Assembly (NCBI RefSeq): GCF_030345075.1
Contig: NZ_CP128361.1
Span: 6,076,001 to 6,140,000 of the forward strand
From: Solwaraspora sp. WMMA2065
GTDB lineage: Bacteria; Actinomycetota; Actinomycetes; Mycobacteriales; Micromonosporaceae
Reading direction: 5' to 3'
DNA length: 64,000 nucleotides
Made by a program: the position numbers and the translations under genes. The notes under the pieces were generated by a model. It saw nothing but the letters and a program-made list of their open reading frames with translations, made no database searches and was not told the DNA's origin. This document shows, one piece after another, positions 18,673-41,949 of this stretch (position 1 is the first letter of the stretch; the number at the start of each line of letters is the position of its first letter).

Positions 18673-18913
18673 CCGGCCATCATGCCCTCCCGGGCATCCC
18701 GGCGCGGCGGTTCCGGAGCCGATCGCGAGCGCAGCAGGTCCAGGTCATGCCCTGGCGATCAAGAGCCGGAGACGTTTCCTCAGAACTTCTGAAAGCGAAC
18801 CCCCAGGCGATCCTCAGCATTCCCTCAAGTTCCGGCATCGTCCTCCGTAGATGATTCCTGACGGTCGACCGCTGTGCGACCGAATGTATCGAGGTGGGAA
18901 GAGGTAGCCGCTG
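18673..18913 (+). promoter_or_regulatory. Upstream region of RHS gene 1
   Basis: 241 bases ahead of the first RHS gene. TCCTCAGCATTCCCTCA at 18811-18827 has a counterpart at 30611-30627 ahead of the second RHS gene (15 of 17 identical), and CCATCATGCC occurs at the left end of both regions. GGGAAGAGG shortly before the ATG is the ribosome site. The shared 17-mer is a candidate regulatory site. Confidence 0.45.
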
Positions 18914-21900
18914 ATGTCTGCGAGTCGTGCTGTTCACCGTCGGCGTCGCTTGAGGACAGCGGGGACGTTCGTTCGGTGGCGGCGGTGGGCCGGTGGGGTC
19001 GCTGTGGTGGTCGCGGCGCTGGTGGGGTTGTCGTCGTCGGTGCCGCCGGGTGCGGTGCCGGCGGACGGTGAGTTCCCGGTGGGGTGGTTGTCGTCGTGGT
19101 TCACCGGTCGGTCGGGGTGGTTGCCGTGGGGTGGGCCGGCGGTGGAGTTGCCGGCGGCGCGGGTCGGTGACGGTGCGGGTGCGGGTGGGTACGTGGGGTC
19201 GGCGGCGACGCGGGCGTCGGGTGGGGCGGGTTCGGCGCAGCGGTTGGTGAACGGTCTGTCGGGGTACGCCGGGGAGCCGGTGGTGGGCGAGTCGGTGACG
19301 CCGGTGACGGTGGGCCGGTTCGATCCGCAGACGAGTGTGCGGGACGCGGTGGCGTCGGGGCCGAATGCCGATGTGTACGCCAACACGGATGGTTCGACGA
19401 CGGCGGAGTTGAGTACGGGGCAGGTCAACTACGAGGCGGCGGATGGTTCGTGGCGGCCGGTGGACTCGACGTTGGTGCGTCGGGGTGACCGGTGGGTGGT
19501 GCGGGAGAACTCGCTGGGGGTGTCGCTGGCGGGCGCTGCTGCCGGTGAGTCGTTGGTGGAGTTGTCGCTGCCCGATGATGGGTCGGTGGGCTGGGGTCTG
19601 GCTGGTGCGGCGGCGGTGGTGCCGGCGGTCGACGGCAGGACGGCCACGTACCCGGAGGTGTTCGCGGACACCGACCTGGAGGTGGTGGCGCGGCCGGACG
19701 GGGTGCAGCAGGGGCTGGTGCTGGCGTCGCGCGAGGCCGGGTCGGAGTGGGTGTTTCCGCTGACGCTGGACGGGGTGTCGGTCCGGGCCGGTGAGGGTGG
19801 GTCGGTCGAAGTGGTCGACGGCGCCGGTTCGGTGGTGGGGTCGATCCCGCCAGCGGTCATGCAGGATTCGTCGGTCGACCCGGAGACGGGGTTGCCGGCG
19901 CGGTCGGCGGCGGTCGCGATGGAGCTGATCGAGGTCGACGGTGCCCCGGCTCTGAAGCTGGTGGCCGACCGGGAGTGGTTGACGGATCCGGCGCGGGTGT
20001 TCCCGGCGCGGGCGGACGTGGGCGCGCTGATCTCGACGAGTGGGGACGTGTTCGTCGACACCGATCCGGACACCGGCCCGGCCGTGCAGAACGGTGACCG
20101 TCTCGCGATCGGCAACCGGGACGGCGTCCTGTCCCGGACGTTTCTCAAGTTCACCATCCCAGCGGAGTTTGCGAAGGCGGGCTGGTTCATCTCCTCGGCG
20201 AACCTGCGGCTGTACCTGAACTACCGGGCGAGGTGTGACGTCCAGCGGGTCAAGGTCGGGCTGGTCGAGGAGGAGTGGACGGTCGGGGATCTGCGGACCG
20301 CCGCCCATCCGGGCCCGAAGATCGATCTGGGACCGAACCACTACAGGTACTACACCGACAACGGGCGGGCGTGTGAGAACCCGAACGCGAATCCGTCCGT
20401 CGGCCAGTGGGTCGAGGTCGATGTCCGGGACCTGATCTCGGGCTGGGCGATCGGTCAGCCGAATCTTGGTCTGGCGCTGTTGGACGAGGAGGACTTGTCT
20501 GCGGCGGCGGCGGCCCTGTTCGCCTCGGCGAACTATGCCGGCGGTGACTACGCGCCGCGGTTGCAGCTGACCTTGTCGAACAATCTGCCGCCGCAGGTGG
20601 ACCAGCGGGCACCGGCCCACGGTGCGGTGGTGTCGACGTTGACACCCCGGTTGTATGTGCGGGGTCGCGATTTCGACGAGTCCGGCACCGTGCGCTACAA
20701 GGTCTGGATCTACGACAACGCCGGGACCCTCATCCACGTCAACGAGGGCACCAAGTCGTACTACGACGTCCCGGTCGGGTTGTTGGAGACGAACAAGCAG
20801 TACTCGTGGGCGGTGCAGCCGTTCGACGGGGCTGTCTACGGCGCGCGCTATCCGAAGTACGTGTTCTACACGAGGATGCCGCAGCCGGCGTTGGGGTCGC
20901 GGTTGGTGCAGAACCCGGGGGTGGGCTATCACCCGGAGATCGGCAACTACACGTCGGCGGTGACGGACGCGCGGGTGACGGGGGTGGGGCCGGCGCTGGA
21001 GATCACCCGGTCGTACAACACTCTGGACACCCGGCGGTCGGGGGCGTTCGGGCAGGGCTGGTCGAGTCTGTTGGACGCGCGGGTGACCGAGCGGACCAAC
21101 TCGGCGGGTGCGGTGCTGGGTGTGGTGGTGCGGTATCCGGACGGGTCGGAGGCGGTGTTCGGGCCGGGGTCGGACGGGTCGTTCGTGGCGCCGCCGGGGC
21201 GGTACGAGGTGTTGACCGCGGTGAAGTCCGGTTCGTCGGTGACCGGGTACCGGTTGACCGTCAAGCACGGGACGACGTACGTGTTCTTGCGCGCGGCCGG
21301 GGGTGGCGCGTTCAAGGTCACGTCGGTGACGGACGCCAACGACCAGACCTTGACGTTGACGTACAACGGCAGTGGGCTGGTGTCGAAGTTGACCAGCGCG
21401 TCGGGGCGGTCGTTGACGCTGACCTGGGCGGGCACCACCAGCCCGTCGGTCGGGTCGCATGTGACGAAGGTGACGACGGACGCGCCGACCGCCGGTGGCG
21501 GTGGGTACGTGTGGCAGTACACGTACGGCAGCTATGACCGCCTGACGAAGGTGTGTCCGCCGACGGCGTCGTGTACCACGTACACCTGGGATAACAGCGC
21601 CAACCAGGGGGCGAACGCGGTGCTGAATCATGCGCCGTCGTCGTTCTGGCGGTTGAACGAACCTTCCGGATCGACCCTGGCGGCCAGCAGCGTGCTGGAC
21701 AACGGCGGCACCGACGTGGCGTTCTACGAGGGTACGACGCCGGGCCCGACACCGGGGGTGTGGCCGGGATCGACGTCGACGTCGACCGCCTTCAACGGCA
21801 CGTCGTCGCGGGTGCGGCTGCCCAGCGGGCTGGTCAACGACAGCGCGTACCAGTCGGTCAGTCTGTGGTTCCGGACGGGGACGGCGTCCCGGGCGGGGGT

Positions 21901-41859: not shown

Positions 41860-41935
41860 GTGGACGTGCACTACTGGGCGCTGTTCGTCTACTACGACGG
41901 CAAGAGGCTCCGGGCACTGGACCGTCCCGGGGTGA
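41860..41935 (+). pseudogene. Degenerate immunity gene after RHS toxin 2
   Basis: Starts with GTGGAC like the intact gene at 30106, passes at once into a match to its HYWAMIIYFG region (here HYWALFVYYDG), then skips to the last ~27 bases, where CTCCGGGCACTGGACCGTCC and the GGGGTGA stop are identical to the intact copy but out of frame. About three quarters of the gene is missing in two deletions. Toxin 2 therefore lacks its own intact immunity gene. Confidence 0.78.
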
Positions 41936-41949
41936 TCGCACCGGGACGG

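Follow-up and report, generated by a model that had tools for sequence, protein, structure and literature searches.

Two RHS genes of over 11 kb stand head to tail on the plus strand of Solwaraspora sp. WMMA2065, bracketed by guaB1 and an accA3-like gene, both on the minus strand. How did two such long genes come to share one site, and what was joined to what between them? An earlier note on this DNA had proposed the tandem duplication of a unit made up of upstream region, toxin gene, immunity gene and accA3 tail. The window, meaning the whole stretch of DNA that was analysed, is 64,000 nt long, has 71% G+C and covers positions 6,076,001-6,140,000 of the single-contig 6.74-Mb genome. In the following, W is the window genome, R1, R2 and R3 are RHS1, RHS2 and RHS3, and G001-G006 are the other genomes of the genus; the name accA3 is that of the earlier note. 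The genes of the locus are:

17236-18672, minus strand: guaB1, left flank, encoding a GuaB1-family IMPDH-related protein or GMP reductase (NCBIfam profiles)
18914-30094, plus strand: RHS1, 3726 aa (open reading frame, Pfam)
30712-41850, plus strand: RHS2, 3712 aa, from its likely start at ATG 30712 (open reading frame, Pfam)
40978-41388, plus strand: PT-HINT domain of RHS2 (Pfam; residues 3476-3612 of the mechanical open reading frame)
41950-43722, minus strand: accA3-like gene, intact, right flank (biotin carboxylase and biotinyl domains)

The left flank is an equivalog match to guaB1 profiles (NF005869 at 838.7 bits and NF052358 at 821.5 bits, both above cut-off). The right flank, which follows the second RHS gene intact as had been claimed, matches Pfam PF00289, PF02786, PF02785 and PF00364, with no NCBIfam match at cut-off among the matches listed (25 of 46). 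Between them, self-BLAST aligns 18935-28389 with 30733-40220 (79.0% identity) and 28556-30112 with 40342-41866 (82%), so that the two RHS genes are colinear and about 79% identical in nucleotides over nearly their full length. In particular, RHS1 consists of an N-terminal basic and hydrophobic stretch, DUF6531, three LamG_3 stretches, a ricin-B lectin domain, RHS repeats, a pretoxin HINT domain (PT-HINT) and a DUF3990 tip, and Pfam finds everything from DUF6531 to the tip in both genes, with 9 RHS-repeat stretches in RHS1 and 13 in RHS2. The RHS repeats (PF05593, 366.8 and 348.6 bits) and PT-HINT (PF07591, 54.5 and 54.0 bits) exceed their cut-offs in both, and with a C-terminal tip behind them they identify both genes as RHS polymorphic toxins. 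The N-terminal stretch, recognised by eye, has a putative role in export or delivery to other cells. The mechanical open reading frame of RHS2 (30553-41850) opens in debris of the flanking genes, inside a remnant of guaB1, and ATG 30712 is probably the true start.

The evidence for how the two units were joined lies in the short stretch between them, which holds pieces of both flanking genes:

30424-30539, minus strand: damaged copy of the accA3 3′ end, with its stop codon at 30424 (BLAST, shuffles)
30538-30557, minus strand: remnant of the guaB1 5′ end and leader, containing CGCACTCTGTCCATCATGCC; longer in G004 (alignment of relatives)

The self-alignment that the earlier note had proposed as a check pairs 30400-30539 with 41927-42076 (117/152 positions, 77%, E=9e-29). 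Against accA3, the segment 30421-30541 scores 109 bits, while the best of 500 dinucleotide shuffles reaches 34.6 bits; a damaged accA3 copy does follow RHS1 in the place where it had been reported, though its exact span is from the stop codon at 30424 to about 30539. It differs from the intact accA3 end by a 12-nt deletion and a 1-nt insertion. Moreover, the homology begins in the end of the immunity gene and continues through the accA3 stop codon into the accA3 coding end; because it crosses immunity-gene end, spacer and accA3 tail, the copied piece was contiguous. The second piece belongs to the other flank. The ten bases CCATCATGCC, found at 18677-18686 and 30548-30557, had been taken for an upstream element shared by the RHS genes, and they are indeed present twice; however, they are part of the leader of guaB1, separated by a few bases from its start codon (CAC, which is GTG reversed). 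At the empty sites of G001 and G002, all ten bases lie a few bases past the guaB1 start codon, and in G003 nine of them do. The joint consequently reads accA3 3′ end and then guaB1 5′ end, the reverse of the order at an empty site. Such a reversal is expected if the interval from guaB1 to accA3 was duplicated head to tail, since the right end of the first unit then meets the left end of the second.

All seven genomes of the genus, including the window's own, were examined at the guaB1-accA3 locus. The pair is present in three (W, G004 and G005), a single unit in one (G006), and in G001, G002 and G003 guaB1 adjoins accA3 with no RHS match between; the comparison that the earlier note had suggested thus found the single-unit locus it looked for, together with empty sites. 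An event private to W is excluded, as the same pair stands in two other species. The single unit of G006 has an RHS2-like body, but its tip stands apart from other RHS2 tips in the tree, so that the unit is RHS2-like in body only. The RHS2 and immunity genes of G006, both unbroken, are separated by a resolvase-domain gene and an IS605-OrfB/TnpB-type gene (IS607-like; 2253-4204 of the fetched stretch).

The joints of the three pairs differ. The G004 joint has a longer guaB1 head and no accA3 tail, and the G005 joint has neither a guaB1 nor an accA3 piece. The best reading is that a single ancestral joint suffered a different deletion in each of the three genomes. As the G004 and G005 joints differ from that of W, the present join near 30541, which had been put forward as the duplication breakpoint, probably marks a later deletion rather than the place where the units were first joined. 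Counting conserved columns only, 11/89 accA3 columns and 3/41 guaB1 columns of the joint have changed, compared with 17-18% expected per branch; the joint may have formed after R1 and R2 split, though the deficit at 11/89 is not significant (P = 0.09-0.14).

The toxin ends and the small genes behind them show a further asymmetry between the units:

29642-30091, plus strand: RHS1 tip, ADP-ribosyltransferase-like (DUF3990; PF13151 at 52.8 bits)
30106-30408, plus strand: imm1, predicted immunity gene, 100 aa (open reading frame; relatives in G004, G005 and G006)
41398-41847, plus strand: RHS2 tip, ADP-ribosyltransferase-like (DUF3990; PF13151 at 49.3 bits), uninterrupted in the alignment
41860-41935, plus strand: imm2 remnant, 76 nt, with two deletions (comparison with G004 and G005)

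Both tips exceed the curated PF13151 cut-off of 32.2 bits. The RHS1 tip also has a weak PF00644 (PARP) match of 21.7 bits, below cut-off; the AlphaFold2 model of the toxin tip is poor (mean pLDDT 47.3), and weak PARP-domain matches are what the sequence offers for an ADP-ribosyltransferase fold. Residues H6, D32, G36, F37, Y38, R41, W49, R54, R94 and E109 are invariant in 7/7 tips, including the RHS2 tips of W and G004; judging from the ADP-ribosyltransferase literature, H6, Y38 and E109 are presumably catalytic. The tips additionally match the PADLOC candidate phage-defence families PDC-M13A/B and PDC-M10A (best E=1.5e-13).

A small conserved open reading frame, with a predicted immunity function, lies directly behind RHS1, and only a remnant lies behind RHS2. 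The earlier note had an immunity gene in each copy of the unit, and this stands for the first unit alone. Imm1 has no match in Pfam, NCBIfam or PADLOC and one chance-level match in the PDB (E=0.7), and its structure model is poor (mean pLDDT 52.5). Both imm2 deletions are identical in W and G004, whereas G005 keeps a full imm2 whose protein is 85% identical to Imm1. Since imm2 is deleted in W and G004 while the RHS2 tip is uninterrupted, Imm1 probably protects against both the RHS1 and the RHS2 toxin, which would make this a two-toxin, one-immunity locus.

Further, a 17-base site stands ahead of each RHS gene:

18811-18827, plus strand: 17-base site TCCTCAGCATTCCCTCA, 86 nt before the RHS1 start (sequence search)
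30611-30627, plus strand: 17-base site TCCTCAGATTTCCCTCA, 84 nt before the RHS2 start (sequence search)

This part of the claim about shared upstream sequence stands, as the site is present twice; it is kept while the remaining leader sequence has diverged. It resembles the 11-base direct repeats that OmpR-type regulators bind, and may be a site of that kind. The pattern TCCTCAGNNNTYCCTCA occurs nine times in the seven genus genomes, each time ahead of an R1, R2 or R3 gene (placed by coordinate comparison in G004, G005 and G006), and five additional matches lack the G at the seventh position. Across 121 genomes of the family, 6 of 15 matches fall outside the genus, in six genomes, and the 5.5-6 kb around each of these six contain no tblastn match to RHS1, RHS2 or R4, a fourth large RHS gene; the site is hence not exclusive to RHS genes in the family. 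In G012, the same box takes the form of a more extended 11-base repeat, and the stretch that was fetched there contains no RHS match.

Judged from 4-fold sites, the pair is old and the event behind it not recent: outside HINT and tip, R1 and R2 are 0.69 identical, about as far apart as guaB1 is when the main clades of the genus are compared (0.68-0.74). The guaB1 sequences fall into two groups, W with G001 and G004 (96-97%) and G002 with G005 (96%). Between W and G004, the identities of RHS1 (0.912) and RHS2 (0.915) are close to those of the flanks (guaB1 0.925, accA3 0.872). Between W and G005, however, RHS1 (0.912) and RHS2 (0.921) are well above guaB1 (0.734) and accA3 (0.812), and W_R1 and G005_R1 have an exact run of 832 nt in common. 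The pair is more alike between clades than its flanking genes are, and has therefore probably moved between species. RHS1 trees place W nearest G005 in the N-terminal part (98/99) and nearest G004 over the body (95/98), a conflict that points to a mosaic transfer history; the exchange between the two clades probably ran through recombination in the flanking genes.

The two genes are themselves mosaics with respect to a third. RHS3 (open frame 5969373-5980442 of the genome, 100 kb from the pair and outside the window) has an RHS1-like core, another tip and downstream gene, and the 17-base site; it has a counterpart in G005, and no core match of its kind at E<=1e-100 in G004 or G006. The fourth large RHS gene, R4 (2489500-2502500 of the genome), is about 50% identical to RHS1, has relatives at similar identity in G004, G005 and G006, and served as outgroup. 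With R4/R5 as root, the N-terminal part pairs R1 with R2 as sisters (95/96), although the alternative of R1 with R3 is not firmly rejected there (p=0.06). In the core, RHS1 has RHS3 and not RHS2 as its nearer relative, and the AU test speaks against R1 and R2 alone (p=4e-43), so that the copies are nearest relatives N-terminally but whole-gene sisterhood is not shown. Since the grouping of RHS3 with RHS1 is confined to the core and absent from the N-terminal part, it is more simply explained by an exchange between these two genes at a later time. The idea that RHS1's nearness to RHS3 refutes a duplication was dropped, as the rooted segment trees limit that nearness to the core.

A different kind of exchange is visible between the copies themselves:

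29174-29660, plus strand: HINT-region tract of RHS1, 484/486 identical to RHS2 (alignment)

Within this bounded tract, R1 and R2 of the same genome agree at 484/486 positions in W and 466/486 in G005, compared with 440-449/486 between orthologues; in G004 the two copies agree at 444/486, with no excess over orthologues. Neither an R1 clade in HINT (p=3e-5) nor a pairing of W_R1 with W_R2 in the gene body (p=8e-8) passes the AU test. The tips behind the tract differ by about 30% in nucleotides. The alignments indicate that gene conversion has homogenised the HINT tract in W and G005 while the tips stay diverged.

The comparisons leave one main uncertainty, whether a unit was duplicated in place or two already diverged alleles were joined. 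In the latter case, an incoming guaB1-RHS2-imm2-accA3 segment would have entered a genome carrying guaB1-RHS1-imm1-accA3, by homologous recombination in accA3 and illegitimate recombination at the opposite end, and the same joint would result with no duplication. Several observations are consistent with such a joining: the locus appears to move between species; the joint remnants are somewhat less changed than a joint of R1/R2 age should be, though not significantly; the R1 and R2 leaders have no BLAST alignment, which begins only inside the genes at 18935 and 30733; and the guaB1 head in the G004 joint resembles G002 in 40/44 columns but G004's own guaB1 in only 27/43. However, the same type of guaB1 head is found in G003, the most diverged congener, and may simply be ancestral. 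Moreover, an RHS1-only locus is found in none of the seven genus genomes, and among 114 sampled genomes of the family outside the genus (121 in total), no match listed, with the best 15 or fewer candidates per genome, exceeds 56% amino acid identity to the RHS1 core query. A further scan of genome contigs gave distant RHS genes alone, at three loci with 27-31% identity. We regard the joining of alleles as unlikely, yet as deserving of weight.

The other explanations fare far worse. Displaced gene 3′ ends beside an intact gene are a typical trace of integrating elements, and a mobile element carrying RHS1 or RHS2 could have targeted the accA3 3′ end, brought a replacement end and left the old one, as the displaced accA3 end beside the intact gene would fit. 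Such an element is disfavoured, and we hold it to be very improbable: no integrase gene would fit into the stretches separating guaB1, RHS1, imm1, RHS2 and accA3, the window contains no tRNA gene, the mobile element of G006 sits elsewhere, between RHS2 and the immunity gene, and the model leaves unexplained why the fragment is joined to a guaB1 head. Chance similarity, or an independent origin of two RHS genes at the same site, draws on nothing beyond the general abundance of RHS genes; it is refuted by the alignment of the joint (E=9e-29; 109 bits against at most 34.6 in the 500 shuffles) and by 79% colinear identity over 11 kb, and its probability is negligible.

Tandem duplication remains the best explanation, strengthened by the single unit in G006, the empty sites in G001-G003 and the guaB1 piece in the G004 joint, with one change to the unit first proposed, which is bounded by both flanking genes and not by accA3 alone. 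The full history, which we consider probable, would begin with a single unit between guaB1 and accA3, consisting of a leader with the 17-base site, an RHS gene with HINT and an ADP-ribosyltransferase-type tip, and an immunity gene. In an ancestor within the genus, this unit would have been duplicated in tandem with breakpoints inside guaB1 and inside accA3, leaving an accA3 tail and then a guaB1 head between the copies. Recombination in the flanking genes, which are shared, would then have carried the pair from species to species, as its excess similarity over the flanks suggests, and each lineage would have lost parts of the joint by deletions of its own. Gene conversion would keep the HINT segments alike in W and G005 as the tips diverged, and imm2 would have been deleted in the lineage of W and in G004. 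Imm1 would neutralise both toxins, to judge from the uninterrupted RHS2 tip, and by analogy with the family the toxins would act on neighbouring bacteria after HINT cleavage frees the tip.

A broader interpretation is tentative and rather doubtful: the pair could be a maintained, horizontally travelling two-toxin, one-immunity locus, with the homogenised HINT segments as a recombination port between adjacent full-length toxins and with units that depend on each other, because with imm2 gone the loss of unit 1 would expose the cell to the RHS2 tip. If true, it would be a natural demonstration of the proposal that rhs loci gain new tips via tandem-duplicated intermediates with immunity kept. The locus is a concrete place for testing cross-immunity and copy-to-copy exchange.

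Our search gave no paper on rhs with gene conversion and paralogues, and among the titles listed none concerned this locus, which is weak evidence that none exists, as most subscription papers were outside its scope. The parts of Zhang et al. 2012 (PMC3482391) that we consulted describe RHS/YD-repeat polymorphic toxins with pretoxin HINT domains, and the present genes share with them the RHS repeats, HINT, variable tip and small gene behind; unlike those systems, two whole loci stand here in tandem with the same tip family and one immunity gene left. The same source tabulates a Tox-ART-HYD2 motif (H, D, GFY, W, R), and the tips have H, D, GFY, W and several R residues, which of these is the motif's R not being specified, together with RHS and HINT partners. 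Equating DUF3990 with Tox-ART-HYD2 rests on this motif comparison, the name DUF3990 having 0 occurrences in PMC3482391. In the portion available to us, PMC4524185 names DUF3990 for the Rhs5-CT tip of Serratia, to which the PF13151 matches relate the present tips. Compared with these systems, Imm1 is without a known family and the ADP-ribosyltransferase activity is predicted.

The current view is that recombination drives how polymorphic toxin loci evolve. Jackson et al. 2009 (PMC2935791) studied, in the sections seen, the displacement of rhs C-terminal tips. RHS3, with its RHS1-like core and other tip, resembles their cases, in which conserved pre-tip sequence recombines; in contrast, whole loci and not orphan tips are doubled here, and flanking housekeeping pieces mark the joint. 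As far as the text consulted goes, Poole et al. 2011 (PMC3150448) proposed an alternative model in which recombination follows a cdi/rhs tandem duplication, so that immunity is not lost. The present locus is a naturally occurring rhs pair in tandem, found in three species and with its joint visible, but the tips of the pair belong to the same family, and imm2 was lost rather than a toxin. Tandem immunity paralogues, esaG and tipC, also recombine according to the abstract of PMC9484751, where homologous blocks likewise drive exchange between tandem copies; those are small immunity genes, whereas here the HINT segment of 11-kb toxin genes is exchanged. Crosstalk between homologous immunity proteins is described for Myxococcus in the part of PMC12077131 consulted. 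Overall, the pair occurs in three species, its joint can still be read, and single-unit as well as empty alleles are at hand for comparison; one of the immunity genes is lost, and HINT is strongly homogenised in two of the three species. This case is an unusually legible and complete variant of known rhs evolution.
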